A stretch of DNA of 27,059 nt. Origin: Clostridia bacterium (GTDB lineage Bacteria; Bacillota_A; Clostridia; Oscillospirales; CAG-272). Of the stretch, positions 8,117 through 25,844 are shown piece by piece. Position 1 is the stretch's first letter. Every line of letters starts with the position of its first letter. A program made the position numbers and the translations under genes. The stretch lies in assembly GCA_017632155.1 (NCBI GenBank), contig JAGBRZ010000184.1, forward strand, positions 1-27,059, written 5' to 3'. Below the pieces are notes generated by a model, which did not search any database, had not been told where the DNA came from, and saw only the letters and a list, made by a program, of their open reading frames with translations.

Positions 8117-8474
8117 TCAAATTACCTTCGCTTTCGTTGTTTGTAATTATTATTTTGCCGATGACAGAAAAATATTCAAAGTTTTGGTCAACCTTTTTTA
8201 AAAGGTTGCAGTTTCTTAAGGCAGAGCCTTAAGCCGACCTCCGCAGACATATTTGCCTACGGCAAAAGTCGACTCTGTCTTGTCTGCTCCCGCCTCCATT
8301 TTCCTTCGGAAAACCGCCAGAGCCGTACAAAACTTCCCATGCGCTTCGAACAGACTGCGCCCCGTCGGCTGTTTGGAAGGAGTAAAACCTTCCCTCGCGG
8401 GAGGTTTTCGCTCCTTCGCGCTTTTCAAGTAGAAAAATGCTACGATCCGTAGAATCAAATCTATGTTGCGGTTA
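8117..8474. repeat. Intergenic region with hairpins and dispersed repeats between ptsH and the XRE gene
   Basis: No gene is supported. The PTS promoter must lie in the AT-rich part (about 8117-8190); a TTTGAA/CAAAAT pair is the best match but weak. Inverted repeats are at 8189-8208 (CAACCTTTT arms) and 8215-8233 (CTTAAGGC arms). A 79-bp dispersed repeat lies at 8247-8325 in minus orientation, and 8339-8390 repeats 3714-3766 in inverted orientation. Confidence 0.6.
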
Positions 8475-8545: not shown

Positions 8546-8680
8546 ATGGTACTTATGATCGGTAACAAACTTAAAAAGCTTCGCCGCAGCTTATACTTGA
8601 CTCAGGAAGAAGTCGCGGCTCACCTTGGGATTTCTTATCAGGCAATAAGCAAATGGGAACGCGGGGTTTCCCAAACTTAA
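8546..8680 (+). pseudogene. XRE-family regulator, N-terminal fragment cut by element insertion
   Basis: The start ATG 8546 is preceded by GGAGG with 7 bp spacing. The fragment encodes a complete Cro/C1-type helix-turn-helix: a KLKKLRRSLYLTQEEVA segment followed by HLGISYQAISKWERG. The reading then leaves the native sequence after about 8666, adds a few foreign codons (V-S-Q-T) and stops at 8680. The rest of the protein is found at 25845-26524. Fusing 8546-8666 to 25845-26524 gives exactly 801 bp in frame (266 aa), reading KWERG-ESGEGYPDITMLP. This HTH-only stub may still be made, but it lacks the dimerisation/effector part. Confidence 0.9.
8664..8666. other. attL core (GGG)
   Basis: This is the left crossover core: host codons ...CGC GGG G on the left, element TTTCCC on the right. 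The exact dinucleotide within GGG cannot be set from one junction pair. An alternative alignment sharing CGGG would leave the target gene out of frame, so the GGG alignment is preferred. Confidence 0.65.
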
Positions 8681-9060: not shown

Positions 9061-12012
9061 TTACTGTATCTTTTTCATATACAGCAAATATCGAAGTCCC
9101 GCATTCGACCATCGAAAGCCAAGCTTTTGGAGCTCGTTTACCGTGAATTCGTTGCTGATCGGAATGTTTTTAGATACAGAAGCGATGGAATTATAGAATG
9201 CCAACACTGCAACGTCGCTGTCATCCATCTGTGCTCTCAGTACCTTTTCAAATTCAGGTTGTGCTGTTTCTTTGATTCGGCACAAAAGCTTACGGCTTAA
9301 TGCTTCAAGGCTATATGTATGTGGATTGTATAGATGGTAGATGTTGTTTATCTTTTTATGGAAGCATAATGCAACATAAGCTGCAGCACATTCATCCACC
9401 GCTGTGAAATCAATCGGGTAGTCCGCAAGTTGATCTCCGTACACACCGACTTTCAGAAGACCTCTGGTTCGCTGAACAAAACCGTTATCCTTGGCATTCT
9501 TCTGGAATTTTCCGTCCGACATTCTCCATGTAAGATTACCGATACGGAAAATATTTGCCTTCAATCCTTCGCTTCTGGCAAGCAGTACAAGCTCTTCCGC
9601 TTTATACTTGGAGTGAATATATACGTTCTGCGTATATTTCTGACCGATATTCAAGCAGAACTCATCATATTTGGCGTCAGAGCATGTTTGCTCGACAGTT
9701 CCGGAACCGCTGATACTTGCTGTTGATGTATGCTGCAGTACAGCTCCGGACTCTTTACAGAAGTCGATCACATTCTGTGTGCCGATTACATTGGTTCGCT
9801 CAAAATCCTCATAATGTCCGGCATGGCTGACATTTGCGGCTGTATGGATCACCATATCCACTTCGCTTACCATCTTTGCGTATACTTCATCGGTAAGACC
9901 GAACCTTGGCTTTTCAATGTCTCCTTCTACGGTCACATAGGTGAAGCAGTTCTTTTCCTTCGGGAAGTAATATTCAAGAACACGTTTCAGTTTGAAATAA
10001 TCTCTTACAAGGCAGACGATGGTTACGTTTTTCAGTGATAATTCCCGTAAAATGTGGGAGCCTAAGAAGCCGGTTGCGCCTGTCAGAAGAACACATTTCG
10101 GTTCTGCCGAAAAATCCAGATCTGCGTTTTGCCGGATCAGCTCATTGACATCGACACTGTCATTCTCGGGTGCCATAGCTTCCTGACTTGCAGACAGGTG
10201 TTTTTCCAGCAGCTCGGCAGTAGGATACATATAGAGATCCTGAACCTGTATATCCAGAATGATTGAAGTTTCCACAGCACCCAAACTATCGCCGCCGATG
10301 TCAAAGAAATCATCCTGAATGCCGATTCCCGTGCGTCCGAGTACTTCCTCAAAAGCAGCAACGATCTTTTTCTGCATCGCTGTGGTTGGCGGAATGTGTT
10401 CGGCAGCATTCTTCTCTATGATTTCATCGATCATCTGCCGTGCTTCTTTACGCTTGATTTTAAGCGTTGTGGTTTTAGGGAACTCTCTTGCGATAAAGTC
10501 ATAAGCAACGATTTTCTTGTAGGAAGGCAGTTCCGAATTAACTTCATTCAGGCGTGTTTTGATATGATGGATCACATCTGTGTCATTGATGTCGGTCGGA
10601 TGGAAGGCGGCACAGATTTTGCCGTCTCGGTCGTATACCATGACATCCTTAACACCGTCTATGGTCATAAGCTGTGATTCCAGCTCTTCCGGATATATAT
10701 TTTTGCCGTTGGCAAGAATGATCAGATTCTTTGAGCGACCGGTGATATACAGATATCCGTCTTCGTCCAGATATCCGAGATCCCCGGTATGAAACCATCC
10801 GTCTTCCGTGATTACCTCTGCGGTCGCCTCGGGATTCTTGTAATAGCCGAGCATCACGCAATCGCCTTTTACAAGGATCTCACCGTCTTCGATCTTTGCT
10901 GTCATACAGGAGATCGGTTTTCCCACAGAGCCAAGCCTGTTTCCTCTGGGGTAATTGCTCGCAACCAGCGGTGCACATTCCGTAAGTCCGTATCCCTGGA
11001 ACATATTTACGCCAAATTCGGTGAAGGTTTCTGCAACGTCCCGGCGAAGTGCCGCACCGCCGACAACAATGCTTGTCAGATTCCCTCCGAATTTATCCAG
11101 CAGGCTTTTGTACAGTTTTCTTCGGATATCGATTCCGAAAAAGCTGCATATACGGTTGATTCTTTTTGCGAATGCAATTTTTCGCTGATTTGCTCCCGAT
11201 GCAATCCCATCCATGATTTTCTTATAAAATGCTTCTGCGATCGCGGGAACAACAAGAATGAAACCGGGCTTGAACCGATTCATATTGGCTGCGATATTTT
11301 CAAGCCGGTCATTGATGCAGATTGTTACGCCACGATACAGCATTCCGAGGTGACCGATGGTCAGCTCATAGGTATGATGGATCGGCAGAACGGACATTGC
11401 CACCGGTTCACAGTGCGTTTTATCAAGGATATTCAGGCTGTAGTAATCCGATATATTGGCGCAGAGGTTCTTCTGGCTGATCATGACACCTTTGCTGATA
11501 CCCGTTGTACCGGAGGTAAAAAGAATCTCTGCCATCGCTTCGGGATCAATGCGCGGAAGTGAAACCGCCTCTGTCCGTAAAATCTCCCCGAAACATTCAT
11601 CCGCAAAACAAATTACATTTGTTATCCGAGAATTGCTCTGTTTGATGGATTCGGATAAATGTGCAAATTCCTCCGAAACGAATACGGTATCCACATCACC
11701 CATTTCCAGAATGTTCAGCATCTCTTTGGCAGAAAGCATTTTGTCCACGGGGACAACAACATTGGCACTGCACAGTATGCCAAGAAACGTGGATATCCAC
11801 GGATAAGAGGTAGAGCCAATGACAGCGATATGCTTTCCTCTGTATCCCTCCTTTATAAGCCATGAAGCGATGGCTTTTACGTCATGGGAGAGTTGTGCGA
11901 ACGTCTTGTCCACGATCAGATCATCAACAAGGTATCGGTATGCAACTCTGTTGCCATACGCTTTTTCGATTATGTCTATAAACATAGGTAAATCAGTCAG
12001 TTTTGAAAACAT
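9061..12012 (-). CDS. Adenylation - acyl carrier - thioester reductase enzyme (CAR-like), 983 aa
   Basis: Three domains are visible. Residues 1-530 form an acyl-activating (AMP-binding) domain with FTSGTTGISKGVM at 164-176, GYGLTE at 339-344, HTGD at 407-410 and the terminal lysine region FPKTTTLKIKRK. Residues 541-605 form a carrier domain with the phosphopantetheine Ser575 in GGDSLGA. Residues 637-983 form an NAD(P)H thioester reductase with GATGFLG at 644-650 and catalytic Tyr797/Lys801 (YIHSK). This A-T-R order is that of carboxylic acid reductases and reductive NRPS-like enzymes: the acid is adenylated, loaded on the carrier and released as aldehyde or alcohol. The A domain looks more like fatty-acyl ligases than amino-acid A domains, and no condensation domain is present. 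ATG 12012 is chosen over 12066 because GAAAGGAG lies 8 bp upstream. A host phosphopantetheinyl transferase would be needed. The substrate is unknown. Confidence 0.9.
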   Translation of the reverse strand: MFSKLTDLPMFIDIIEKAYGNRVAYRYLVDDLIVDKTFAQLSHDVKAIASWLIKEGYRGKHIAVIGSTSYPWISTFLGILCSANVVVPVDKMLSAKEMLNILEMGDVDTVFVSEEFAHLSESIKQSNSRITNVICFADECFGEILRTEAVSLPRIDPEAMAEILFTSGTTGISKGVMISQKNLCANISDYYSLNILDKTHCEPVAMSVLPIHHTYELTIGHLGMLYRGVTICINDRLENIAANMNRFKPGFILVVPAIAEAFYKKIMDGIASGANQRKIAFAKRINRICSFFGIDIRRKLYKSLLDKFGGNLTSIVVGGAALRRDVAETFTEFGVNMFQGYGLTECAPLVASNYPRGNRLGSVGKPISCMTAKIEDGEILVKGDCVMLGYYKNPEATAEVITEDGWFHTGDLGYLDEDGYLYITGRSKNLIILANGKNIYPEELESQLMTIDGVKDVMVYDRDGKICAAFHPTDINDTDVIHHIKTRLNEVNSELPSYKKIVAYDFIAREFPKTTTLKIKRKEARQMIDEIIEKNAAEHIPPTTAMQKKIVAAFEEVLGRTGIGIQDDFFDIGGDSLGAVETSIILDIQVQDLYMYPTAELLEKHLSASQEAMAPENDSVDVNELIRQNADLDFSAEPKCVLLTGATGFLGSHILRELSLKNVTIVCLVRDYFKLKRVLEYYFPKEKNCFTYVTVEGDIEKPRFGLTDEVYAKMVSEVDMVIHTAANVSHAGHYEDFERTNVIGTQNVIDFCKESGAVLQHTSTASISGSGTVEQTCSDAKYDEFCLNIGQKYTQNVYIHSKYKAEELVLLARSEGLKANIFRIGNLTWRMSDGKFQKNAKDNGFVQRTRGLLKVGVYGDQLADYPIDFTAVDECAAAYVALCFHKKINNIYHLYNPHTYSLEALSRKLLCRIKETAQPEFEKVLRAQMDDSDVAVLAFYNSIASVSKNIPISNEFTVNELQKLGFRWSNAGLRYLLYMKKIQ

Positions 12013-12052
12013 ATGATTTACTCCTTTCTGTGGTGTATTTTGAACGATAACT

Positions 12053-12439
12053 TTACAGTGATGCAAGAGTTGACATCAGATAGCTTGCCGTAACGGAGGT
12101 GTATAGGAAACCGTCGATCAGACGATCTTTTTTTAACTGTGTGACTTTATGGGCAAGTTCGGGAGCGGCAGTGTCATCACAAAATGCTACAATCTTACAT
12201 TCCGGCTCGTTTTTGCGAAGCTGTTTGATTTCTTTCAGCCGACCTTCCATGGTTGCTCCCGGAAGATAGGAGATTTCCATCAATAAAATGTCGGCATCCA
12301 TCGATGCGGACTTGTCGGAAGTATTTGTGCTGACTTCAGAAGTCACCTGACACGGCAAAAACTCTCCGCAATCCTTCAGTGTACGGATAACGGCTGTTGA
12401 CAACAGGTCATTTTTGATACTGACAAGAACTTTCTTCAC
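12053..12439 (-). CDS. Stand-alone degenerate receiver (REC-like) protein, 128 aa, GTG start
   Basis: The fold reads as a response-regulator receiver: KKVLVSIKNDLL for strand 1, DADILLMEISYLPG for strand 3, KIVAFCDD for strand 4 and DGFLYTSVT near strand 5. The key residues are altered. The acidic pair is replaced by S-I, the phospho-Asp position is Glu55, and the conserved Lys is not evident. It therefore probably cannot be phosphorylated normally and may act as a fixed-state or ligand-responsive adaptor. There is no output domain. GTG 12439 is chosen because AGGAGG lies 7 bp upstream; the longer frame would run through the promoter. It is first in a two-gene unit, 40 bp ahead of the reductase gene. 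Confidence 0.75.
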   Translation of the reverse strand: MKKVLVSIKNDLLSTAVIRTLKDCGEFLPCQVTSEVSTNTSDKSASMDADILLMEISYLPGATMEGRLKEIKQLRKNEPECKIVAFCDDTAAPELAHKVTQLKKDRLIDGFLYTSVTASYLMSTLASL

Positions 12440-12485
12440 ATGCACTCCTCCTCTCAGAAGAAGCTCCTCTCTAATTCTTATATAT

Positions 12486-12528
12486 ATTTTATCATTCCGG
12501 CAGGTTATCCACATCGTACTTTCGTGCA
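12486..12528 (-). promoter_or_regulatory. Promoter and 19-bp activator-like box of the REC-like/reductase unit
   Basis: Read on the minus strand, the box TGCACGAAAGTACGATGTG (12528-12510) is followed by exactly 18 bp and the -10 TAAAAT (12491-12486). No good -35 hexamer exists; the box occupies that place, as expected for an activated promoter. The same box with the same spacing precedes the sensor operon at 16254-16212. Confidence 0.85.
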
Positions 12529-12535
12529 TAAATAA

Positions 12536-12566
12536 AAGAAGTACCGTCGATTTGACAGTACTTCTT
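12536..12566 (-). terminator. Terminator after the LuxR-type regulator gene
   Basis: A 13-bp stem (one G-T pair) with a 5-nt loop lies just after the regulator's stop codon. A TTTTATTT tract follows on the minus strand. It separates the sensor operon from the reductase unit, which has its own promoter. Confidence 0.85.
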
Positions 12567-12579
12567 GAAACATTTCGGA

Positions 12580-13212
12580 TTATTCGGTTTCTTTATCAAC
12601 TATGATCAGCCCGCAGTCTCTGGCACGAACGGCAAGTTCCGTGCGATTTCTGAATCCGGTCTTGTCACGCATGGACTGAATATGTCCTTTTACGGTTCGC
12701 AGAGACATATACAATTTTTCCGCAATTGCCGCATCACTTTCACCGGCTACGACCTCACGTAGAACCTCAAGCTCACGAGCCGTCAATTCATCGCTGGTGA
12801 TATATCCGAACTGCAACGGCGGTGTTGATTCCGGATAAATATTTTCACCCGCCATGGTTCGCTCCATGACATTGAGGATGCTCTCCGCCGTTTCGGTTTT
12901 ATACCAGAAACTGTCCACCCCGGCTTTTCGTGCGCGATCAATGAAACTGCATTCCGGCTGACCGGTAATTATAATGATTTTGGTCTGCGGGAAATTTTGC
13001 TTGATTTTTTCGGCCGCATCGATTCCGTTGGCGTACAGCGAAGTGCAGACATCCATCAGGATCAGATCTACTCTGGTTGTCCGACAGCAGAATTCCGCAA
13101 ACGCCGCACTTTCTACGGAGGGAACCAGTTCATATTGACCGCTTTGTTTGACATATAACTCCAAAAGCTGTCGATCCATAGGAGCGTCTTCCACAATCAG
13201 AACTCGTGTCAT
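12580..13212 (-). CDS. NarL/LuxR-type response regulator, 210 aa
   Basis: The N-terminal receiver has the acidic pair in VEDAPMD, phospho-acceptor Asp54 (DLILMDV), Thr83 (IIITG) and Lys105 (WYKT), so it should be phosphorylatable. The C-terminal LuxR helix-turn-helix, about residues 142-200, contains LTARELEVLREVVAGESDA and LYMSLRTVKGHIQSM, a standard DNA-binding helix. The start overlaps the kinase stop as ATGA at 13209-13212, so the two are translationally coupled and form a two-component pair. The identical 19-bp boxes in front of this operon and of the reductase unit are the obvious candidate targets. That binding is inference. Confidence 0.95.
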   Translation of the reverse strand: MTRVLIVEDAPMDRQLLELYVKQSGQYELVPSVESAAFAEFCCRTTRVDLILMDVCTSLYANGIDAAEKIKQNFPQTKIIIITGQPECSFIDRARKAGVDSFWYKTETAESILNVMERTMAGENIYPESTPPLQFGYITSDELTARELEVLREVVAGESDAAIAEKLYMSLRTVKGHIQSMRDKTGFRNRTELAVRARDCGLIIVDKETE

Positions 13213-14492
13213 ATGTTTTCAGACCCTCCTTTCGGCATTGTAATGGTAAGGTTGTATTCGGGCTGACAGTCAATCTGCATGATGCCACCGGTAGTCTCAA
13301 CCTTGCGTCGGAGAGAACTTAGTCCGCCGCCTTCTGTAATTGCATTTTCAGGTATCTTCCCGTCATTGCGGAAGCAGACCTGATAATCGGTATCTGTTTC
13401 GGTAAGACGGATATGTAAAGTTTTTGCATCCGCATGGCGCACCGCATTGGTCAGCGCTTCGGTTGCCGCTTCAAGGAAGATTTTTTCTACCGCTTTCCGG
13501 TCGGGCATTTGTCCGACCGCTTCTACGGAAATACCGAATGCAGTTGCTGTTTGAATCAATGTCTGCAGAGTGAACTGTTCCGTATTTTCGACGATATTCT
13601 GCCGCAACAGTGCAATACTACGCTTCCATGCTTCTGCAGGCAGTGCTTTGTTATCATTGTTATCAAGCAGATAACTGCGGGTGGCAAGGAGCGTCTGTCC
13701 CAATTCACTGTGGATGCCGATTTTCGTTTCCAGTCGTTCACGGTTACGGGTCAGCACTTCAACATCCTTCTCATAATCCTTGAGTCGCTGATACAGTTCC
13801 TCAAGGGCAATATTTTTCTGTTCCAATTCTTGTGCAAGGTTGTGAAGCTGCGTGATGTCAGCGGCTGTGATCTGAAACATATCCAGCAGCTGTGTCCGTG
13901 AGAAACTCCAGACCGTTCCATCGGACAGACGGAAGTTTGGTTGACTGTCTGTTGACAACCGCATGATATCCGGCTGTATGGATCCTCCGCAGAGGTCATC
14001 CCACACAAGGGCAGCATTTTGAAGATCGCGTCCCAATATGACATGGCAAAGCTGATTCATGCGATGATTGACCAATAGGATTCTGCCGTTTTCTGCATAG
14101 AAGCAAAGTCCGGTCGGGAGATGGTCAATGCTCTCTTTGATAGCGGAACGGGAAAGCGTCGTCTTGCTGAGCTGTATTTCATGCAGAACCAGGAAAATCA
14201 GAAAAGCAGCCATCACAGCCATAAGGATGATGATATATACAACCGGCAGTTCACAAAACCAACGGCTGACAGCCGCAGGAGCCAGTTCCTTTTTCTCACT
14301 GCGTACATCGGCAGTATACAGGAGCATCATACCCGCACTGAGTACAACCGTACAGAGGGTTGGAAGAATAAGAGGAATTGATTTTCTGCGAAAGACAGGA
14401 TAGAGCATATGGATACTGCCGCACAGAATCAAAAATAAGCCGAGCATCAGCATGATGCGAAAGAGAACAGAAATGGTATCATAATTCATCAT
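13209..14492 (-). CDS. Sensor histidine kinase (DesK/NarL-type), 427 aa
   Basis: Three hydrophobic segments lie in the first 105 residues (about 8-32, 40-60 and 82-104). A PAS-like region follows around 125-215 (LPTGLCFYAENGRILLVN), then a coiled coil at about 215-258. The phosphorylated His is probably His261 in IHSELGQTLL, which resembles the HisKA_3 H-box. The ATPase domain carries the N box TEALTNAVRHAD (Asn349) and GGGLSSLRRKVE (about 388-399). All elements of an active HPK7-type kinase are present. ATG 14492 overlaps the upstream gene's stop (ATGA), with GGAGG 9 bp upstream. It is the likely phosphodonor for the neighbouring LuxR-type regulator. Confidence 0.93.
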   Translation of the reverse strand: MMNYDTISVLFRIMLMLGLFLILCGSIHMLYPVFRRKSIPLILPTLCTVVLSAGMMLLYTADVRSEKKELAPAAVSRWFCELPVVYIIILMAVMAAFLIFLVLHEIQLSKTTLSRSAIKESIDHLPTGLCFYAENGRILLVNHRMNQLCHVILGRDLQNAALVWDDLCGGSIQPDIMRLSTDSQPNFRLSDGTVWSFSRTQLLDMFQITAADITQLHNLAQELEQKNIALEELYQRLKDYEKDVEVLTRNRERLETKIGIHSELGQTLLATRSYLLDNNDNKALPAEAWKRSIALLRQNIVENTEQFTLQTLIQTATAFGISVEAVGQMPDRKAVEKIFLEAATEALTNAVRHADAKTLHIRLTETDTDYQVCFRNDGKIPENAITEGGGLSSLRRKVETTGGIMQIDCQPEYNLTITMPKGGSENI

Positions 14493-16156
14493 TTATCCGC
14501 ACCTCCTTCGGCTATTTCATAATCAATAACGATGTCTTCCTCCTGAACGGTATAAGTAAAATTGCCGCTGTGAGCACAGATTGCATCCAGCACAGAACTT
14601 TCAATCATGTTTGTGCACCCAATCTGAAGATTCAATTTCAAAGTTCCGTCTTTACAGGTAATGCGCACCATCATGGCTGTGATCTGATCAAACAGCATTT
14701 CAACCAGACTCTCATAAAAGTCGTAAGCGGCAAGGAGACAGGAAAGCGGTATATTGCCTTCGCACTTTGCGTTCAGCAACACGGAAACAGAGGCAAGCTG
14801 CAGATTGTCCAGCGATTCACGAATGCAGTATTCGATCTCACGAGCCTGAACAATCGGATTTTCCTCACCAAGCAGAAGAAGGTTACTGCGTCGCTTCACA
14901 TAGGAACCGATCACGCACATCTTCACCAATGCATTTTCGGTCAACTGCGAATTTTTGGTCTGTTCCAGCAAAGCTTCGATTTTCTCGATCTGCGGTGAGA
15001 CTTCTTTTGCAATACGATTATACAGATGGTTTTTCTCTTCGAGCTGTGCCTGCTGTTCTTTCAGTTTCAGCTCTGCCTGCAGGAGCGAATTTTTTCTGCC
15101 GAGCTGCTTATGTACATCCTGCAGCTGCTTCGTCAGTTTGTTGATTTCCGTGACATCATCCTGCCACACTACAAATCCGGCTTTGATCGGCTTGGCGTGC
15201 AGAATGGTGTCGTCCCTATGGATAGGCTGTTCGCTGATTTGTCTGATCTCATCCTGTGTCAATGGGATAGCAGAGGAAGAAGCAAAGCACGGCTGATAAT
15301 CAAGGTTGACGATTTGTGCCGCAACGGTGGAAGCGTTGAACATCTTTTTGTAATTCGTATTGGAGGCTATCAAGCCACTCTGAATTGCACTTTCCAGAAG
15401 CAGTGAAAGAATCAGACAGTCAACGACAGTAAGATCACAATCCCGGAAAATTCCGCAGCAGTAAAGCGTCCAGAAAACCACCGCACCGCCCATAATCATG
15501 GCTGGCATTTTCTGCAATCTTTTGCTGCCGGGAACACGGGATTTTTTCAGTAGCATAACGACCACATAGATACCGCCGAGCACAAACCATGCCATTGCTG
15601 CAAAATAGATCGGACCGTATCCATATGTATAGTCGAACTGTTTGATGCCGTCAGGAAAGCTGAAGGTTAGCTCATGCAGATCGTTTGTAAAGATGCCGCC
15701 AAGAATCGCAAATGCGGGAATATAGAGGGCATTCATCCACCGGGGATTCCGATATCCTTCCGGCTTTCCCATGTGGTCAATGATGAATACACCGAGCAGC
15801 GGAATCAGAATCATAGGGACGTAGTAGCTGTACCAGATATAACGTCCCAGCCAGAAGGTTCGGTCAGCTATAAATTCGTACTTGATGACTTTGGCTGTCA
15901 GCCAGAAAATCATCAGAATGCTGACGGAAACGAGATTGCGGCGCACTTGCACACTCATGATTCTTCGCTGCAAAGATACACACCAGCTCGTCAGCAGTGA
16001 GATATGGATTACACCTCGGAGTCCTCGCATCAAAGCCTGTATAACGGTATTTGCAGTGATGCCGTCTAACTCATCTCCCAAATAGGCAATGATAAGCAGG
16101 ATGGCTATACCGACGGTAAATTGGATATAGCGATTGCTCTTTTTCAAATGATTCAT
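14489..16156 (-). CDS. 7TM sensor with degenerate kinase core (pseudo-histidine kinase), 555 aa
   Basis: About seven hydrophobic helices occupy residues 10-265, resembling the 7TM N-terminal domain found on some Firmicutes histidine kinases. A PAS-like segment follows (VVWQDDVTEINKL is typical of a PAS end), then a coiled coil and a region shaped like a kinase core. The expected H-box reads IAKEVSPQIEKIEALL without histidine, and no clear N box or glycine-rich G boxes follow, so catalysis is unlikely. It is the first gene of the sensor operon. The start is uncertain: ATG 16156 directly abuts GGAAAGGAG, whereas in-frame TTG 16147 has 8 bp spacing. A longer frame to 16255 is excluded because it would include the promoter. 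It may bind the ligand and steer the active kinase encoded next. Confidence 0.8.
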   Translation of the reverse strand: MNHLKKSNRYIQFTVGIAILLIIAYLGDELDGITANTVIQALMRGLRGVIHISLLTSWCVSLQRRIMSVQVRRNLVSVSILMIFWLTAKVIKYEFIADRTFWLGRYIWYSYYVPMILIPLLGVFIIDHMGKPEGYRNPRWMNALYIPAFAILGGIFTNDLHELTFSFPDGIKQFDYTYGYGPIYFAAMAWFVLGGIYVVVMLLKKSRVPGSKRLQKMPAMIMGGAVVFWTLYCCGIFRDCDLTVVDCLILSLLLESAIQSGLIASNTNYKKMFNASTVAAQIVNLDYQPCFASSSAIPLTQDEIRQISEQPIHRDDTILHAKPIKAGFVVWQDDVTEINKLTKQLQDVHKQLGRKNSLLQAELKLKEQQAQLEEKNHLYNRIAKEVSPQIEKIEALLEQTKNSQLTENALVKMCVIGSYVKRRSNLLLLGEENPIVQAREIEYCIRESLDNLQLASVSVLLNAKCEGNIPLSCLLAAYDFYESLVEMLFDQITAMMVRITCKDGTLKLNLQIGCTNMIESSVLDAICAHSGNFTYTVQEEDIVIDYEIAEGGADK

Positions 16157-16211
16157 CTCCTTTCCAGTCGAGAGTTGAACATGGCAAATATCCATAACAA
16201 CCCATTTTAAT

Positions 16212-16254
16212 ATTATAACAGTGCAATGAAATCCGCACATCGTACTTTCGTGCA
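16212..16254 (-). promoter_or_regulatory. Promoter and 19-bp box of the sensor operon
   Basis: The box TGCACGAAAGTACGATGTG (16254-16236, minus strand) is followed by 18 bp and a perfect -10 TATAAT (16217-16212). Box and spacing are identical to those at 12528-12486, while the surrounding bases differ. This points to selection on a regulator site. Confidence 0.88.
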
Positions 16255-16561
16255 AAAATTTGAAACTCCATTTTTGGGGAGCAAATTTTCCACATCAAAA
16301 GGAAGTTTGATGCTGCATACGACAGGAGTAGCGGCTTCCTTTTGTATTTTCTGAGGAAAGGTGTCAAACTGCATTTTTACAGTTTGGGTACCATTTTCGA
16401 GGAAAATATACGGGGTGTCCAGAGGGGTGCGGGTCTCCGGTGGAGACCTCAAAATGAGAAGCATTTTGAAGCACTGACCGAGCCGGCAGGCGAGACGCAT
16501 CCCTTGGCTTTGGGTTTCCAATAGGGGCGAGAAGCATCCCTGTTGGCACACGATTTTGCTT

Positions 16562-16834: not shown

Positions 16835-18061
16835 TCAGCTCCCGTATCGTATTTTCTCCTGCTCCAACTCAAAGGGAATCGTCATTTTTTTCGGAAGCTC
16901 ACTCATGGAGAGTTTCCGAATTTGACGGATTGCGATTTTTGCAAAGACGTTCGTCCTGCTCAAATCACCGTCTGCCAACTTTACGATTTCCGCAGTTCCG
17001 GCAGAAAAGTCAAAACGGATTTCTCCCCATTCATCGTCGTCGCTTACATACCGATGTACTGCTTTGTACTCGTATGTAGCGGCGGCGATTTTTTTGTTTT
17101 TATCGATCAGCTTCAATTCCACAACACCAAGAACACCCGCATCCACCAAATGTCCCGTCAGCTTGTCCAGAGCTTTCTTATAGGCTCGCTCCGCACCGCT
17201 GGCTGTGCTGCCTTCAAACATTACCGCCAGATCTTCAAAGATGGGGCGTTCCTCCCATGAGCCGACCCGTCCACAGGTCATGCAGATCGCATTACGCTTT
17301 TCAAGATAGGTCTGCTCCTTGTAACTGAGCTTGTCAAAGGCGGCTTGTACCGCATCGGCACGAATACCGTTCCAGAGAATGTCCGCATAGTTCCAGCTAT
17401 CGTCACGGGTAACATCCTCGCCCGTTTCCTCGCTGTCCTCGTCTTGTATGGTCGCATAGAACGGAACACGGCTGCGGTTTTGTCTTGCAAGGGTCAGATG
17501 CTCGGCGGCGGTTTCTTCGGTGCAATTCTGTTCGGCAGCATACTCGGCAATGACTTCCTTTGCGGTCTTGCCGGAATTGTTATAGAGCCAAGCAATGCCA
17601 CGGGCAGCTTTGTACTCGTCCAGAGATTTGAATGAGCCTGTTTCTTCCTGTCGGCGGCAATCCAGAAGTGCGTTGCCGATGAAGTGATGGGCATAGGTCA
17701 GAAAGTCTGCGCCCTTGTCGGGAACGTAATTCTGCAAACACTCCAACATGGCAAGAACACAACTGAGCTTGTAATCCAGAAAACGCAAAGGGTCGTATCG
17801 GTCAATGCCCTCGGTCAGCAGAAAACGGTACACTCGCTTGTTCAGCCTGGACTCGTAGTGATGCAGGAAGTATGTAAAGTAAGTCAGATCATTTTCACGG
17901 AAAGCGGTAATGATGTAATCATTGATGTCCTCCACCTTGGGCGGCGCAGGGTCAAGACGGAAGATGCGCCCTGCCTGTCGCATGGTCATAGCCCCGTCAT
18001 GCACAGCGAATTTTGTTGTACTGACATATTCGTCGGTATTCCAGAAGCGTTCTTCTGCCAT
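16835..18061 (-). CDS. Divergent sigma-70-like protein of mobile elements, 408 aa
   Basis: Residues about 110-145 (PDKGADFLTYAHHFIGNALLD, then CRRQEE) resemble sigma region 2 of FliA/SigF-type factors, where F-x-T-Y-A-x-x-x-I-x-x-A-x-x-D is common. A C-terminal part (KLSYKEQTYLEKRNAIC, then a helical segment ending AERAYKKALDKL) resembles region 4. The remaining 130 residues, rich in beta strands, are not recognised. GGAGG lies 10 bp before the ATG. It is the last gene of a minus-strand trio, next to oriT. It may direct transcription of element genes or be a recruited regulator; resemblance is moderate and no activity is proven. Confidence 0.6.
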   Translation of the reverse strand: MAEERFWNTDEYVSTTKFAVHDGAMTMRQAGRIFRLDPAPPKVEDINDYIITAFRENDLTYFTYFLHHYESRLNKRVYRFLLTEGIDRYDPLRFLDYKLSCVLAMLECLQNYVPDKGADFLTYAHHFIGNALLDCRRQEETGSFKSLDEYKAARGIAWLYNNSGKTAKEVIAEYAAEQNCTEETAAEHLTLARQNRSRVPFYATIQDEDSEETGEDVTRDDSWNYADILWNGIRADAVQAAFDKLSYKEQTYLEKRNAICMTCGRVGSWEERPIFEDLAVMFEGSTASGAERAYKKALDKLTGHLVDAGVLGVVELKLIDKNKKIAAATYEYKAVHRYVSDDDEWGEIRFDFSAGTAEIVKLADGDLSRTNVFAKIAIRQIRKLSMSELPKKMTIPFELEQEKIRYGS

Positions 18062-18102: not shown

Positions 18103-18702
18103 TTATTCAAAATATACATTTAGCACGTATCCTGCCGGATAGCATTCGACGTAGTCATCTACCGGAGGAAGATGGTTTAGAATCATATCTACAAACTCAC
18201 ACAGATAATCAACATCAAGCAAAAAATCCAAAGGTGTACCAATGTCTTTATAGATAAAAGAATGAATTGCATTTCGCTTCTTCTGAATACTGTTTACCCA
18301 GAGATAATCCTTTGATTTCTCGTCATCCCAAAGAATCCCCGTACTAAATTTTTTCAAATCTTCAAATCTCATATCTTTTTCGGGTTCAAGAATTTGCCCT
18401 TTTTTATTTTTCATTGGTTGATTGATGTAATCATCATAAAAGACACAATAGAAGAAACGAAGCCATGATTCCACAACAGCACCCAAGTTTGCTCTTGCCA
18501 AAATCAGTTCGCCAACGGTCATATCCAAGCCTTTATCAATCCAAATTTTCAGTGTTTTTGTAAGTTCGCTTTGCCAATCCAACATTGCTATGTCAAGTTT
18601 TTTTGCAGCATTATCAGGTGCAATGCCATGAACATCTTTCCAAATCAAAGCTGTATTATTAGTCTGTATCGTCAAAATCTCAAAACTCGATCTTCTCGCC
18701 AT
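18103..18702 (-). CDS. Unknown protein, 199 aa
   Basis: I do not recognise this family. The product is soluble, mainly helical and AT-richer than its neighbours. A KKRNAIHSF segment near the C-terminal third is similar to the RNxIH motif seen in some HEPN-like and abortive-infection-type helical proteins, but spacing does not match the strict R-x4-H nuclease motif, so this is only a hint. ATG 18702 is preferred over 18744 because TGAGGAAA lies about 7 bp upstream; an intermediate ATG at 18714 is possible. It lies between the zinc-ribbon protein gene (gap 16 bp) and the sigma-like gene (gap 41 bp), so probably one transcript. Its lower GC may mark a separate acquisition. Confidence 0.7.
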   Translation of the reverse strand: MARRSSFEILTIQTNNTALIWKDVHGIAPDNAAKKLDIAMLDWQSELTKTLKIWIDKGLDMTVGELILARANLGAVVESWLRFFYCVFYDDYINQPMKNKKGQILEPEKDMRFEDLKKFSTGILWDDEKSKDYLWVNSIQKKRNAIHSFIYKDIGTPLDFLLDVDYLCEFVDMILNHLPPVDDYVECYPAGYVLNVYFE

Positions 18703-18718
18703 ATATTTCCTCATTTCA

Positions 18719-19831
18719 TTATTTAACTGATAGTTGCGCCTCATTCAACAAGGCATCCTGCGACATCTCCGCTTCATAGCTGCCCTTGGCATACACATGA
18801 TCGGAGATCGCACGCTCCATTTTGTTTTTCGCCAACCGCTTCATCACGGCGGCGGTCTGCTCGTCCAGAGTGCTACGGTGGAGATACTGCGTGATCGTAT
18901 TCATGCGGCGAGTGTAGATCGCCTTAATGGGATGATCGTCCGCAAGCTCCCTTTGCTCTCTGCCTTTCAGATTGCCGATCTGACGGCAGGTGCGTCCGAG
19001 CTTGTCACCCGGTGCAAGTCCTCCGCAGTATTTTGTCTGCCTTGCATCGGTGGTTAAAAACCATTTGCCGCAGATGGGGCATAATCTTGGCGCATGACCG
19101 ACACATAATCCCTCAAACAAATCCGAACGGAACATTCCCACAAAGGAAACGTAGTGCATACGCTTCACAAGCTGCGGTGTCTCGTTCTCCGGCATGACAG
19201 CGGACACATACTGCATTGTGGTGTTGGTCAACTGCATCCACATGGGATTATCCAATGACAAGGTTGGAGCAGCATTGAAATGTTCCGCAAAGGTTTCTGC
19301 ATATCCGTCCGGCGTTCGCTTGCTATTGTGGAGCTTGTGGGCAAATTCAATCATACCTTGCTTGTAAATCATCAGAGTACCGCCAAGCTGCGCCAGCTCA
19401 CTTATCAGCTTTACAACACCTACGCCCTTTTTGTATTGTTCATCAAAGACAGCTGCCATGCCGATTTCCTGCGCTGCCTTTATGTAGGCAATGGCATTGT
19501 CCGTATATTCCCGTGAGAAGATCTGCTGAATGTCATGTCCGTCGGTGGGAAAGTCGAACAACGAAAACGGATATGTGGTACGCATCATCTGCGTGATCTG
19601 CAACACGCTCTCCTTGGCAACCGTGAAATGCTCTGCGGTAGGTGTTCCGTCCTTTATCAGTTCAACAACAGCCGCCAGAGGAATGGCAAGCTGTACGAGC
19701 TGTCCGATCTGTTCATCGGAAATATTCATAGCAGCACAACCAATACTGCCCGTGGGCAAGGTATGTCCGGCATAGGTTACTTTGTCCTGCCAAAAATCAA
19801 GGGTTAGCAATTCTCGTTTTATGATGCTCAT
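18719..19831 (-). CDS. DUF6076-like zinc-ribbon protein, 370 aa
   Basis: The C-terminal half carries a likely zinc site: CPICGKWFLTTDARQTKYC followed by a further Cys about 14 residues on (GRTCRQIGN). The N-terminal 250 residues are helical and not recognised in detail. The arrangement matches proteins annotated DUF6076 that occur on Firmicutes integrative elements; no function is established. ATG 19831 has GGAGG 7 bp upstream, and an extended -10 promoter (TGGTATAAT on the minus strand) lies 40 bp further. It opens the minus-strand trio and is divergent from the primase gene. Confidence 0.7.
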   Translation of the reverse strand: MSIIKRELLTLDFWQDKVTYAGHTLPTGSIGCAAMNISDEQIGQLVQLAIPLAAVVELIKDGTPTAEHFTVAKESVLQITQMMRTTYPFSLFDFPTDGHDIQQIFSREYTDNAIAYIKAAQEIGMAAVFDEQYKKGVGVVKLISELAQLGGTLMIYKQGMIEFAHKLHNSKRTPDGYAETFAEHFNAAPTLSLDNPMWMQLTNTTMQYVSAVMPENETPQLVKRMHYVSFVGMFRSDLFEGLCVGHAPRLCPICGKWFLTTDARQTKYCGGLAPGDKLGRTCRQIGNLKGREQRELADDHPIKAIYTRRMNTITQYLHRSTLDEQTAAVMKRLAKNKMERAISDHVYAKGSYEAEMSQDALLNEAQLSVK

Positions 19832-20083: not shown

Positions 20084-20701
20084 ATGAATGTATTTGCAAC
20101 AGTAAAGACAAGCATCAACACAAGAGAAGCGGCGGCGAGGTACGGCGTGGAGGTCAACCGGCATGGGAAAGCCCTCTGCCCGTTCCACAATGACAGCCAT
20201 CCAAGCCTGTTTGTGGACGATGATCACTACTATTGCTACGCTTGCGGCGAGCATGGGGACGTGATCGACTTAACATCCAAGCTCTACGGTCTGTCCATGC
20301 TCGATGCGGCGAAGAAGCTGGCATACGACTTCGGCATCACGCAGGACAAGCCGCCCGACAGGGCAATGCGGGAAAAACTCAACAGGAAAAGCAAAGCACA
20401 GCGACTCAGAGAAAATGAGAAGCTGTGCTTTTCTACGCTCATGGAGTATTACAAGCTCCTGCAGGAGTGGATGGTGCTGTATGCACCGAAAACACCGGAG
20501 GACGAGGTGGACAGCAGATTTTCCGAAGCTTGTCATTGGCTGTCTTATGTGGAGTATCTGGTGGACACGCTCATCGGCGGCACTTCCTACGAGCGCACCG
20601 AGGTAATCGACATGATGATGTCCGACGGCAAGCTGAAAAAGCTGCAAGAACATTTGAAAAAACACAGAAAGGAGAGTTCTTATGAGCAAGAAGAAAGATG
20701 A
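20084..20701 (+). CDS. CHC2 zinc-finger primase-like protein, 205 aa
   Basis: The N-terminus carries the DnaG-type zinc ribbon of bacterial primases: Cys32-x2-His35 (CPFHNDSHPS) and Cys51-x2-Cys54 (YYCYACGEHGD), followed by DVIDLTSKLYG. The TOPRIM catalytic core of full DnaG is absent, so this is probably the template-binding half of a split mobile-element primase acting with the ATPase encoded next. The rest is helical. GGAGG sits 6 bp before ATG 20084, and the 3' end overlaps the next gene by 20 bp. It likely supports replication of the excised or transferred form. Confidence 0.88.
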   Translation: MNVFATVKTSINTREAAARYGVEVNRHGKALCPFHNDSHPSLFVDDDHYYCYACGEHGDVIDLTSKLYGLSMLDAAKKLAYDFGITQDKPPDRAMREKLNRKSKAQRLRENEKLCFSTLMEYYKLLQEWMVLYAPKTPEDEVDSRFSEACHWLSYVEYLVDTLIGGTSYERTEVIDMMMSDGKLKKLQEHLKKHRKESSYEQEER

Positions 20702-22001
20702 TTGCATGGAAGAACAGCCGGGGTGGTACAACGGTCAATTCTTGGATGAAGTCGGTTTTTGCTGTGATTTCATCTGCCGTCACCCTATGGTCTGTGTGGG
20801 CGGCAAGTTCTTTTCCAAAGAGGGGCGTATCTATGATGAAAACGGCATCAAGAAGCAGATTTATGAAATGCTCCGTCCCTATCTGAAAGTGGGGTTGGCT
20901 AAGAAGTGTTCCAATCTGCTTGAAATGCTCCGCATGGAAGCATACAAGGACAACTTACCCGTTCACGAGGACAGACTGCACGTTGCCAATGGCACTCTGT
21001 TTGTAAAGGGCGAGTTTGACGAACACAAAGAGTTTTGCCGCAACCGTCTGCCCGTCAAATACAATCCCGATGCTCCGCAGCCTGTGACATGGCTGCATTT
21101 TTTATCGGAACTGTTGGAGGACGAGGACATTCTGACCTTGCAGGAATATCTCGGCTACTGCCTTATCCCCACCACAAGAGGACAGACCATGATGCTTCTG
21201 AAAGGCAACGGCGGCGAAGGCAAAAGCCGTATTGGTGTTGTCATGCAGGCTATGCTCGGTGCCAATCTCAAAAACGGCAGTATCGCCAAGGTAGAGCGCA
21301 GTCCCTTTGCAAGAGCCGATCTGGAACATGAGCTTGTCATGGTGGACGATGACATGAAGATGGAAGCACTCAAATCTACACATTATCTGAAATCCATTAT
21401 CACAGCGGAAATGCCGATGGATTTAGAACGCAAGGGCGAACAGAGTTACCAAGGGGAAATGTACGTCCGTTTCCTTGCGTTCTCCAACGGTGATCTGGAA
21501 TCCCTCTATGACCATTCGGACGGGTTTTACCGCAGACAGCTTATCTTGTCTGTCAAAAAGAAACCCCTTGATCGTGAGGACGATCCTTTCCTTGCGGACA
21601 AGCTTGTTGCGGAGGTCGAGGGAATTTTTCTATGGTGTCTGGACGGTTTGCGTAGGCTGATCGCAAACAACTACCGTTTTTCCGAAAGCGGCCGTACCAA
21701 GGACAACCGTGAACAGGCAAGGCGGGAGGCGGACAATGTGCTGCTGTTCCTGCGCTCAGAGGGATATATCCGTCTGAAAGCGGACAGCACCATTACCTCC
21801 GCCGATCTGTATGCCATCTATTGTATTTGGTGCAACGATAACACTTATAAGCCGTTGGCGGCACGAACGGTCAGCATGACCTTGAAGAAACACGCAGACG
21901 AATTTGGTCTGGAACACGACAACCACATCACAAATTCTCTCGGCAAACAGGTCAACGGCTTTTGGGGCATTGAAGCATTGATCTCGCCGGGAGTTTTGTA
22001 A
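20682..22001 (+). CDS. Phage/plasmid D5-type primase-helicase (SF3 ATPase), 439 aa
   Basis: The Walker A motif GNGGEGKS is at residues 175-182 and a Walker B-like LVMVDDDMK at about 219-226. A YNPDAPQPVTWLHFL region precedes them, typical of the D5 N-terminal domain, and a winged-helix-like end (SADLYAIYCIWCND) follows. These are signs of a P4/D5-type superfamily 3 helicase that unwinds phage and plasmid origins. RBS AAAGGAG lies upstream of ATG 20682 inside the end of the primase gene. It is presumably the replicative helicase of the element; a long inverted repeat follows directly and could be its origin. Confidence 0.9.
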   Translation: MSKKKDDCMEEQPGWYNGQFLDEVGFCCDFICRHPMVCVGGKFFSKEGRIYDENGIKKQIYEMLRPYLKVGLAKKCSNLLEMLRMEAYKDNLPVHEDRLHVANGTLFVKGEFDEHKEFCRNRLPVKYNPDAPQPVTWLHFLSELLEDEDILTLQEYLGYCLIPTTRGQTMMLLKGNGGEGKSRIGVVMQAMLGANLKNGSIAKVERSPFARADLEHELVMVDDDMKMEALKSTHYLKSIITAEMPMDLERKGEQSYQGEMYVRFLAFSNGDLESLYDHSDGFYRRQLILSVKKKPLDREDDPFLADKLVAEVEGIFLWCLDGLRRLIANNYRFSESGRTKDNREQARREADNVLLFLRSEGYIRLKADSTITSADLYAIYCIWCNDNTYKPLAARTVSMTLKKHADEFGLEHDNHITNSLGKQVNGFWGIEALISPGVL

Positions 22002-22482: not shown

Positions 22483-22704
22483 ATGAAATCGAATTTGAGA
22501 AATGAAATCAAGTCGTACATTGTACGGCAAGGGCTGACCATGCAGGTGGTCGTTGACCTCTTATCGGATGAATACGGATGGAGTGACAGCGTTTCCAATC
22601 TATCCAACAAGCTTCAGCGTGAATCGCTTCGCTATACCGAAGCGATTCAGCTTGCCGATGTGCTGGGCTTTGAAATTGTATGGAGAAAGAGGGGTGATCG
22701 CTGA
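22483..22704 (+). CDS. Small helix-turn-helix-like protein preceding the relaxase (DUF6471-like), 73 aa
   Basis: The product begins MKSNLRNEIKSYIVRQGLTM, has a WSDSVSNLSNKLQRESLRY segment and ends GFEIVWRKR. It resembles a compact XRE-like HTH family (similar to DUF6471) that often stands directly before MobV relaxases on Firmicutes elements. A role as relaxosome accessory or regulator of the relaxase gene is inferred. GGAGG is 8 bp before ATG 22483. Its TGA overlaps the relaxase ATG by one base (TGATG), giving coupled translation. The coding sequence contains a perfect 12-bp inverted repeat at 22620-22649. Confidence 0.75.
   Translation: MKSNLRNEIKSYIVRQGLTMQVVVDLLSDEYGWSDSVSNLSNKLQRESLRYTEAIQLADVLGFEIVWRKRGDR
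22620..22649. repeat. Intragenic 12-bp inverted repeat upstream of the relaxase start
   Basis: TGAATCGCTTCG (22620-22631) and its complement (22638-22649) with a 6-nt loop lie inside the small HTH-like gene, 55 bp before the relaxase start. It could be an operator or an RNA hairpin that modulates relaxase translation. Confidence 0.7.
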
Positions 22705-23678
22705 TGGCAGCACCGCAGTACGCTATTTTACGATTTGCCAAGTATAAGGGACCGGAAATCAGCGGCATTGAAGCTCATAACGAGCGCACTAAGGAGAAGT
22801 ACGCAAGCAATCCCGACATTGACCCTACCCGTACACACCTCAATTTCCACCTTATCAAGCCGGAACGCAAATATCGTGCAGAATCCGAAAAGCAGATTGC
22901 AGAAGTCGGATGCCGCACACGCTCTGACAGCGTTCGTGTGGTGGAAGCTCTGATTACTGCTACACCGGAATTTTTCAAGGGAAAAAAGCGTTCCGAGCTA
23001 AAAGAGTTCTTTAATGAAGCGTTGGAGTTCATCAAACAGCATCAGTATCCCGAAACAATTATATCTGCTGTGGTGCATCTGGACGAGAAAAATCCCCATA
23101 TGCACCTTTGCTTTGTTCCGCTGACGGAGGATAAGCGTTTGTGCGCTAAAGAAATCTTGGGCAACAAGAAAAAGCTAACGGAGTGCCAGGACAAGTATTG
23201 GGAACACATGGTTAAGAAATATCCCGATCTGGAACGTGGCGAGAGTGCCAGCGAGACTGGGCGTGACCATATCCCTACGAGAGTATTCAAGCAAATGACA
23301 CGGCTGACCAAGCAGCATGACAAGCTGGAAGAAATGCTTGCCGATGTGAAGTTTACGAATTACAAGGAACGCTCCGCACAGATTGCGGCGTTTCTTGAAA
23401 AGTATATTCCCGATGTTGCCGCTATGGAAACGCAGATGAAGAAATACCAGAAGTGCTTCACCACGGCTGAATCGGAGAAAAAGGCGCTCAAAAAGAAAAA
23501 CGCCGATCTGTCCGCTGCTTTGGAAAAGAGCCAGCAGCAAAGTACGCTGAAAAAATTACAGGAAACCAAGCTGCAACAAGATTATGCGGCAGCCTGTGCC
23601 ATTCTTGACCGCATCCCGCCGGAGATCATCAGAGAGTACACCCACCGCAGCACACAGAAACACGATATTAACCGATAA
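22704..23678 (+). CDS. MobV-family relaxase (Mob/Pre), 324 aa
   Basis: This enzyme nicks DNA at oriT and pilots the strand during mobilization by a helper conjugation system. Motif I is HNER at 25-28 followed by NPDIDPTRTHLNFHL. Motif III HLDEKNPHMHL at 125-135 supplies the histidines that bind metal in MobM. R-x-D-x-V (residues 73-78) precedes a typical TATPEFF segment. The C-terminal 100 residues are a coiled coil. This is the TnpZ type of relaxase found on Tn4451. The matching nic sequence is 6 kb away at 16562-16589, not directly upstream as in pMV158. RBS AGAGGGG precedes the ATG. Confidence 0.95.
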   Translation: MAAPQYAILRFAKYKGPEISGIEAHNERTKEKYASNPDIDPTRTHLNFHLIKPERKYRAESEKQIAEVGCRTRSDSVRVVEALITATPEFFKGKKRSELKEFFNEALEFIKQHQYPETIISAVVHLDEKNPHMHLCFVPLTEDKRLCAKEILGNKKKLTECQDKYWEHMVKKYPDLERGESASETGRDHIPTRVFKQMTRLTKQHDKLEEMLADVKFTNYKERSAQIAAFLEKYIPDVAAMETQMKKYQKCFTTAESEKKALKKKNADLSAALEKSQQQSTLKKLQETKLQQDYAAACAILDRIPPEIIREYTHRSTQKHDINR

Positions 23679-23693
23679 GAAAGGATTTTGCCT

Positions 23694-24074
23694 ATGAAGA
23701 AGAAAAAGACCTATACTGTAGATCAGCTTAACAAAATGATGATGCGTGATGACCTCTCCCTGTGGGAGATCATCGAAGCCTGTGCCTTTATCGACATCTG
23801 CGACTGCTATGAGCCGATGGAGGTTCCTCCCAAGGAACAGGAGGACGAATGGCGCAGGATGCGTGGAGAATACGAGCCGGAGCCTACCTTAGAGAATACT
23901 TCGTTCTATGTCACTGAGCCTGATGGAACGAAGTATTTTTATTGCGGCAATACCCGTACAAAGGTAACGGAGTTCTTTTCTCCCAACGGACAGACCATGG
24001 ACAAGCTGATCGAAAATCTTGTCCGTTTCGCCGCAAGAAATACCGAATCCGCAAATATTTCGATGAACTGTTAA
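23694..24074 (+). CDS. TnpW-like element protein, 126 aa
   Basis: The C-terminal half (GNTRTKVTEFFSPNGQTMDKL, then IENLV) resembles TnpW-type proteins of Tn4451-like transposons, whose core pattern is a beta strand, F-x-x-x-G-x-T-x-x-x-K and a helix. The N-terminal half is acidic and not recognised. The start ATG 23694 (KKKKTYTVDQL) is preceded by AAAGGA, whereas ATG 23688, six bases upstream, is not resolved from it. No enzymatic motif is visible. It sits between relaxase and recombinase, the usual place for this family. Function is unknown. Confidence 0.6.
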   Translation: MKKKKTYTVDQLNKMMMRDDLSLWEIIEACAFIDICDCYEPMEVPPKEQEDEWRRMRGEYEPEPTLENTSFYVTEPDGTKYFYCGNTRTKVTEFFSPNGQTMDKLIENLVRFAARNTESANISMNC

Positions 24075-24084
24075 CAGAATCGCA

Positions 24085-24144
24085 TTGAATCACAGCCCAC
24101 GCTTATGGTACAATATTTACAGGTAAGTATTGTAAGCGTGGGTT
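24085..24144 (+). promoter_or_regulatory. Recombinase promoter overlapped by a palindrome
   Basis: TTGAAT (24085-24090), 18 bp, then TACAAT (24109-24114) form the promoter. Palindrome arms CCCACGCTTA (24096-24105) and TAAGCGTGGG (24133-24142) enclose the -10 and probable start site. Inner arms CAATATTTAC (24111-24120) and GTAAGTATTG (24123-24132) also pair except for one base. A repressor or the recombinase bound here would block transcription. Confidence 0.7.
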
Positions 24145-24169
24145 GTTTCACGAATTAGGAGGATTTTTA

Positions 24170-25819: not shown

Positions 25820-25841
25820 CATAACCAATATCTTTAAGTAC

Positions 25842-25844
25842 GGG
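25842..25844. other. attR core (GGG)
   Basis: This is the right crossover core: element ...TTTAAGTAC to the left and host AATCCGGCG to the right. Joining element ends predicts an attP in which 11-bp arms flank GGGTTTCCC almost symmetrically. Confidence 0.65.

Follow-up and report, generated by a model that had tools for sequence, protein, structure and literature searches.

An integrative mobilizable element from a clostridial genome with a possibly envelope-responsive acyl-reductase cargo

We analysed a stretch of 27,059 nucleotides from a Clostridia bacterium (contig JAGBRZ010000184.1 of assembly GCA_017632155.1), referred to here as the window. It holds an integrative mobilizable element whose cargo joins a two-component sensor cassette to a receiver-like protein and an enzyme with adenylation, carrier and thioester reductase domains (A-T-R). 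The best reading of these sequences is that an envelope-sensing cassette acquired an acyl-reductase whose enzyme family is linked to lipids. That the element thereby places acyl reduction under an envelope-sensing switch is a proposal we make tentatively, giving it slightly less than an even chance. It draws on what can be read from the DNA, namely the gene set and its motifs, twin identical sites with their spacing, a hairpin, the mobile context and counts of neighbouring genes. If true, mobile DNA could carry and control part of the membrane-lipid chemistry of anaerobes, which would then be more than a fixed chromosomal trait.

All five cargo open reading frames (ORFs) are on the minus strand, in two units. 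The first unit encodes, in order, a seven-transmembrane (7TM) pseudokinase, a histidine kinase and a LuxR-type regulator, and the second encodes the receiver-like protein and the A-T-R enzyme:

About 14489 to 16147, minus strand: 7TM pseudokinase (HisKA_7TM), its kinase-like segment without a conserved His
13209 to 14492, minus strand: histidine kinase, NarX/UhpB-like, keeping His261, Asn349 and Gly390-Leu391
12580 to 13212, minus strand: NarL/LuxR-type response regulator with Response_reg and GerE domains
12053 to 12439, minus strand: degenerate receiver domain protein of 128 residues, with Glu replacing the phospho-Asp
9061 to 12012, minus strand: A-T-R enzyme of 983 amino acids, with an acyl-ligase-like A domain, a carrier domain (GGDSLG) and a thioester reductase (YIHSK)

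Gene starts were chosen by eye from Shine-Dalgarno-like sequence, and the longer ORF starts at 16255, 12529 and 12066 are mechanical. An earlier interpretation made from the letters alone (the sequence-only reading) had described five genes on one strand, with ATGA overlaps in the sensor unit. The ORF list and Pfam hits for the main domains agree with that arrangement, and both junctions of the first unit, 7TM/kinase and kinase/LuxR, are 4-nt overlaps in the window coordinates.

A sign that the two units are controlled together is a site that the sequence-only reading had not noticed and that this analysis adds. The same 18-bp sequence stands upstream of each unit, and a hairpin lies between the units:

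16236 to 16253, minus strand: operator-like site GCACGAAAGTACGATGTG, upstream of the sensor unit
16212 to 16217, minus strand: -10-like hexamer TATAAT, 18 bp after the first site
12510 to 12527, minus strand: second, identical site GCACGAAAGTACGATGTG, upstream of the receiver/A-T-R unit
12486 to 12491, minus strand: -10-like hexamer TAAAAT, 18 bp after the second site
12536 to 12566, minus strand: terminator-like hairpin of 13 pairs, between the LuxR-type gene and the second site

With up to three mismatches allowed, 0.01 matches to the site would be expected in the window by chance. The spacing between the site and the -10-like hexamer is exactly 18 bp at both units, and the site overlaps the place of the -35 element, where the hexamers are poor (ATGTGC and ATGTGG). 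The 8-kb region contains 17 terminator-like sites against 7.2 expected, and the inter-unit hairpin has the longest stem among them. Twin sites and a hairpin are the sequence pattern expected of one activator serving two promoters. A single regulator is thus likely to govern both units, and the LuxR-type protein would be the candidate activator at both putative sites. The sequence-only reading had supposed that sensors and enzyme were coupled in their regulation. The hairpin between the units and the shared site support this, and the case is stronger because the site is common to both units.

HisKA_7TM was recognized in the first protein at 36.9 bits (Pfam cut-off, 28.6), and an alignment of 41 sequences has His in at most six of them at each of 24 columns of the H-box-like segment. 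The histidine kinase scores below the cut-off for HATPase_c (21.9 versus 26.4 bits), and its H-box His261 and N-box Asn349 are present in all 40 aligned sequences, the window included. Both Response_reg and GerE are above the Pfam cut-off in the regulator, so that kinase and regulator have the makeup of a NarL/LuxR-class two-component pair, with phosphotransfer predicted from sequence. The receiver-like protein gave zero Pfam hits. Its AlphaFold2 (AF2) model has a pLDDT of 88, and receiver domains head its Foldseek matches in the PDB, with a chain of the DesK-DesR complex first and FrzS and PhoB also present; folds other than receivers, e.g., an arginine decarboxylase domain, appear lower down. 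Where receivers have the phospho-Asp, 29 of its 31 aligned family members have Glu, and it is plausible that the protein acts as a constitutively “on”-like partner.

In the A-T-R enzyme, AMP-binding, PP-binding and NAD_binding_4 all score above their Pfam cut-offs. The carrier Ser and the YxxxK residues are invariant in 19 aligned sequences. GGDSLG is the carrier motif and YxxxK the reductase motif of such enzymes. The three domains in one chain, together with these catalytic motifs, give the enzyme the architecture of an A-T-R carboxylate reductase, and it probably converts a carboxylic acid to an aldehyde. Carboxylic acid reductase (CAR) has the same domain order, GGDSLG and YxxxK, but the window enzyme has only 983 amino acids and falls far under the NCBIfam cut-off for CAR (NF041592, 145 versus 1300 bits). 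The Thioester-redct model is also below its cut-off (153 versus 213 bits), and the NCBIfam hits include numerous fatty-acid ligase models, none of which reaches its cut-off. The best NCBIfam match is the AusA model, and chains of AusA and gramicidin synthase rank among the best PDB matches. Membership in the aureusimine-type nonribosomal peptide synthetases (NF047350) is nevertheless not indicated, at 268 versus 2500 bits and with the condensation domain absent; the Pfam scan thereby agrees with the sequence-only reading, which had found no such domain. The A-domain stretch LPIHHTYELT presumably lacks the Asp of amino-acid-activating domains. We infer that the substrate is a fatty acid and that the product, an aldehyde or alcohol, enters membrane lipids.

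These parts suggest how the element could work. The 7TM pseudokinase would sense a membrane or envelope condition and pair with the histidine kinase, which would phosphorylate the LuxR-type regulator. At each promoter the regulator would then occupy the 18-bp site, which covers the -35 region, and so boost expression of its own unit and turn on the other. Either this step or the enzyme itself may be modulated by the receiver protein with its Glu. The substrate of the A-T-R enzyme would be a carboxylic acid, in the most likely case a fatty acid, which it would activate, load on the carrier domain and reduce to an aldehyde (or alcohol) destined for membrane lipids. The element may thus be a transferable membrane-lipid switch instead of a chemical-messaging circuit.

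The sensor cassette is recurrent, and this is part of its interest: of 250 genomes searched from the family to which the genome of locus L010 belongs, 36 have 7TM homologues (L, G and C numbers are our handles for loci, genomes and contigs). We fetched 40 of 46 7TM matches and later chose eight further loci for a receiver gene or a close 7TM gene, giving 48 cassette loci; L171 (on G115 C8), itself one of the 46 matches, was added later. Among the 40, the kinase gene adjoins the 7TM gene in 39 and the LuxR-type gene is next in 36, and the window has the same three-gene order and strand. Of the four exceptions, L126, L127 and L138 have no LuxR hit (L127 and L138 reach the contig end), and L139 has its LuxR gene elsewhere. 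By these counts, the 7TM-kinase-LuxR cassette is a real module. The receiver gene is rarer, found in 12 of 397 family genomes, and lies near a cassette in all 12. It follows the LuxR gene in 11 (with an intervening gene in L166 and L167) and precedes the 7TM gene in L171. One narrow literature search on LuxR and histidine kinases found papers in which HisKA_7TM does not appear, which proves little.

Neighbours of the cassette point to the envelope. An SPFH gene is present in 8 of 40 cassette loci and in none of the 80 control loci, which were all the loci of the A-T-R species-genome search; the Fisher p value of 9e-5 (3e-4 with the query's own locus removed, 7 of 39) is only a guide, since the link was noticed afterwards and the controls were taken from a mixture of Clostridia-type records outside the family of the cassette loci. 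Four of the eight later-fetched loci also have an SPFH gene, and one has an edge fragment. Some SPFH-bearing cassette loci carry zinc-ribbon, DUF4428 and TPM genes as well, and the TPM and zinc-ribbon neighbours may resemble ydjG/ydjH. Further neighbours encode AIM24, solute-binding proteins, and choline-binding, dockerin and Ig-like surface proteins. At L110:9585-19998, there is a second cassette with a receiver gene, which may also be mobile, since an AIM24 gene, a gene of the sortase family and a stretch resembling a serine recombinase are close by. In L108, the 7TM gene is preceded closely, on its own strand, by a gene for tRNA-Leu (9338-9423) that could be an insertion landmark.

Many relatives of the enzyme have neighbours that resemble membrane-lipid genes. 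A protein search scored 8,000 candidates, of which 7,999 passed, and the best 120 of these 7,999 range from 93% to about 60% identity. A search of species genomes kept 80 loci, at least 14 of them A-T-R loci; the other 66 matched the A-domain part only. Flanks were fetched to at most 10 kb per side and are shorter or absent where contigs end. In 9 of the 14 listed A-T-R loci, the next gene downstream on the same strand is PlsA-like (of plasmalogen-synthase type), a label that stands for the BcrAD_BadFG and DUF2229 families rather than for direct comparison with PlsA of Clostridium perfringens and that should temper the lipid link accordingly. A PlsR-like gene follows it in eight. The A-T-R homologues of these loci lie directly upstream of what looks like a plsA-plsR operon, and the PlsA/PlsR-like pair matches the two-gene layout and the size of about 4.2 kb given for C. 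perfringens in the available portions of PMC12838417 and PMC9702350. The other PlsA-like proteins are 71 to 86% identical to that of L001, and the L008 contig stops inside its PlsA-like gene. L010, L011 and L013 have no PlsA-like gene nearby, and the downstream gene of L012 and L014 cannot be judged because both loci end inside the A-T-R gene. Among 14 control genomes, DUF2229 was found in two only, Thermotoga maritima and Lactococcus lactis. One DUF2229 match each was found in G002, G001, G600 and G601, adjoining an A-T-R gene only in G002. At E ≤ 1e-200, G001 itself was the only one of 392 genomes of the order with the A-T-R enzyme.

The window enzyme was placed in a tree that has L011 and L013 as its root and comprises 130 sequences; A-T-R proteins of at most 950 amino acids, L012 and L014 were excluded from it. 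The window clade comprises 29 sequences with support of 1.0 and is nested inside PlsA-linked loci, with enclosing nodes supported at 0.76 to 1.0. Because of this nesting, the PlsA-linked context is probably older than that of the window. Both outgroup A-T-R genes have an iron-containing alcohol dehydrogenase gene directly upstream (L011:2259-3425 and L013:8808-9998), which suggests further reduction of the aldehyde to an alcohol at those two loci.

We asked of the same data whether enzyme and sensors occur together. No sensor gene was seen in the fetched flanks of the 14 listed A-T-R loci from reference genomes. At E ≤ 1e-10, the 7TM gene was found in none of 13 A-T-R reference genomes, with four of four positive controls positive, and the kinase was likewise not found in these 13 by a search that had no positive control; the genome of L007 was excluded from both searches. 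Conversely, the A-T-R gene is absent from 48 of 48 cassette loci. In the window, then, two separate things have come together in a way that is uncommon: a sensor cassette that recurs, and an enzyme that is patchy in its distribution and in many loci linked to PlsA. These patterns of occurrence speak against a sensor dedicated to the enzyme's product, with the qualification that, among A-T-R homologues of 70 to 93% identity, L010 alone was seen in context. A stable enzyme-sensor pair may exist inside the closest A-T-R clade (up to 93% identity).

These counts bear directly on the account given by the sequence-only reading, in which the aldehyde or alcohol is exported and sensed by the 7TM protein, raising expression of both sensors and enzyme. 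The twin sites supply the wiring for such positive feedback, and one contig size, 13,170 bp, turns up in an A-T-R cluster and in a 7TM cluster, both at 73%, which hints weakly that the two are inherited together. However, A-T-R genomes lack the 7TM gene and cassette loci lack the A-T-R gene, so the sensor serves other targets, and the large 7TM- and receiver-bearing contigs of 207,762 and 216,908 bp have no counterpart in size among the best 120 listed A-T-R clusters, although clustering could hide one. Sensing of the enzyme's product by the 7TM protein is not supported, and we consider the feedback circuit improbable. The sequence-only reading had itself named reductase homologues found routinely without sensors as the result that would count against it, and had proposed five-gene co-occurrence as a check; what we found was reductases without sensors and sensors without the reductase.

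Two other accounts keep the chemistry and change its purpose. A reactive aldehyde or alcohol could be secreted as an inhibitor or antimicrobial under envelope attack, in keeping with the aldehyde-yielding chemistry of A-T-R enzymes, the AusA and gramicidin-synthase matches and the envelope-type genes beside the sensors. We hold this to be similarly improbable, given that the enzyme has no condensation domain, that no exporter or immunity gene was recognized among the scanned element ORFs and that PlsA-like genes adjoin the homologues. Alternatively, a short or aromatic acid could be reduced to an alcohol for redox balance or detoxification, with no lipid link. The upstream iron-alcohol dehydrogenases of L011 and L013, the high scores of aromatic-acid ligases against the A domain and the layout shared with CARs speak for this; the PlsA-like linkage in 9 of 14 listed loci and the failure to recognize an alcohol dehydrogenase among the scanned element ORFs speak against it, and we doubt it strongly.

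The envelope-switch reading that we prefer has its own difficulties, which are collected here. In the PDB comparison, luciferases and 4-coumarate ligases score as high as or higher than fatty-acyl ligases against the A domain; because aromatic-acid ligases match equally or better, the scores do not single out fatty acids as the substrate class. The AF2 model of the enzyme is only moderate (pLDDT, 69), too weak for its A-domain pocket to be read. L010, the nearest reference A-T-R locus (74%), has neither a PlsA neighbour nor a 7TM gene. The window itself gave zero matches in a tblastn search at 1e-3 with the PlsA- and PlsR-like proteins of L001 and has no SPFH-type gene, so the plasmalogen gene set seen beside most listed homologues is not linked to the enzyme here; across the cassettes, the SPFH link reaches one fifth of the 40 loci. 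In the kinase of the window, the His is followed by Ser; Asp is the residue found there in 31 of 40 aligned sequences. On the regulatory side, a sigma-70 promoter scan listed neither proposed promoter because the -35 element is poor, and the 18-bp site is a putative binding site for the regulator. When 37 other cassette loci were tested for duplicated elements, the signal was clear only in L133 (score of 22.5, versus 21.5 for the window; shuffle maxima, 12 and 10.5, respectively), and L114, L122, L124 and L125 topped their shuffles slightly. The duplicated site of L133 also differs in sequence from that of the window.

The L133 element is 25 nt long, stands before the 7TM gene and again after the LuxR gene with 24 of 25 positions alike, and suggests that twin operators evolve separately in some cassettes. 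We also considered the 18-bp site as a wider motif and claim none, since it is not conserved in other cassettes; one near match, with one mismatch to a degenerate form, precedes the 7TM gene of L117.

A more specific form of the preferred reading is that of a mobile membrane-lipid switch in which an acyl-reductase derived from a plasmalogen-gene-linked family is brought into a recipient and, under twin operators and two-sensor control, leads it to make aldehyde-derived lipids (vinyl-ether, acetal or alcohol) during envelope stress. We regard this version as unlikely. Operons that combine A-T-R and PlsA-like genes are a candidate route by which anaerobes make or use long-chain aldehydes. In the available parts of the sources, plsA of Lactococcus cremoris produced plasmalogen in Escherichia coli (PMC12838417), bacteria were reported to use long-chain aldehydes and not alcohols for plasmalogens (PMC9702350), and PMC8788747 deals with the ether lipids of Thermotoga. 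Unlike the plsA-plsR operon, the window has no plsA- or plsR-like gene, and those parts of PMC12838417 and PMC9702350 do not mention an A-T-R gene for plsAR operons.

The window system would resemble DesK-DesR or LiaSR, whose regulators are of the same class and control membrane genes, driving a CAR-like enzyme. Like DesK-DesR of Bacillus subtilis, as described in the portions available of PMC3996569 and PMC11237406, it sets a membrane kinase and regulator over an acyl-chain-modifying enzyme. It differs in its two sensor proteins, its extra receiver-like protein, its A-T-R target and its mobile setting. A second likeness is to the pspA-ydjGHI operon of B. subtilis, whose SPFH protein, YdjI, links PspA to the membrane (PMC8581546, in the part available). 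SPFH-domain genes likewise recur beside the sensor cassette but not in the window.

The sequence-only reading had placed the two-unit package on mobile DNA, and family searches and the split gene at the element's ends support this:

8546 to 8680, plus strand: N-terminal piece of an interrupted XRE-type helix-turn-helix frame at the left joint, stop codon included
20084 to 22001, plus strand: CHC2 primase-like and D5-like proteins
22704 to 23678, plus strand: MobV relaxase, from family searches
24143 to 25774, plus strand: large serine recombinase, from family searches
25838 to 26524, plus strand: C-terminal (tetratricopeptide repeat) piece of the interrupted frame at the right joint

The N-terminal part of the XRE-type frame, a naming made by eye, meets a stop near 8.67 kb, and its repeat-bearing part resumes at 25.84 kb, which gives the element a size of about 17.2 kb. 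With integrase, relaxase and defined ends, the stretch is by sequence an integrative mobilizable element with a putative attachment core. The motif GGGAA..CGG occurs at the left and the right joint and could be where the serine recombinase attaches the element. An imperfect repeat of 71 bp (8253-8323 and 26793-26863) was set aside as an attachment repeat because it lies outside both joints; it may be a dispersed host repeat.

In a plasmid search, all matches were under 60% identity. A phage search gave no near DNA match, and its protein matches were all under 60% identity. Viral contigs yielded zero hits with a single A-T-R query and zero with a 7TM query; an A-T-R alignment search of them gave two matches, both weak and confined to the reductase part, and an 18-mer search gave two single hits.

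The neighbours of L010 (a split solute-binding-protein gene, a LuxR-type gene and DUF6935) have homologues in cassette loci, a hint that such A-T-R enzymes move within the same gene neighbourhoods as the cassette. The solute-binding-protein gene beside the A-T-R gene there is broken into two overlapping frames (L010:8334-9721). To the left of the element in the window are phosphotransferase system genes and a GATase_5 protein. Within it, ORFs 18103-18744 and 23688-24074 have no assigned family, a DUF6076 protein lies beside the cargo at 18719-19831, and next to the cargo, at 16835-18061, is a sigma-region-2-like protein whose Sigma70_r2 match is below the Pfam cut-off.

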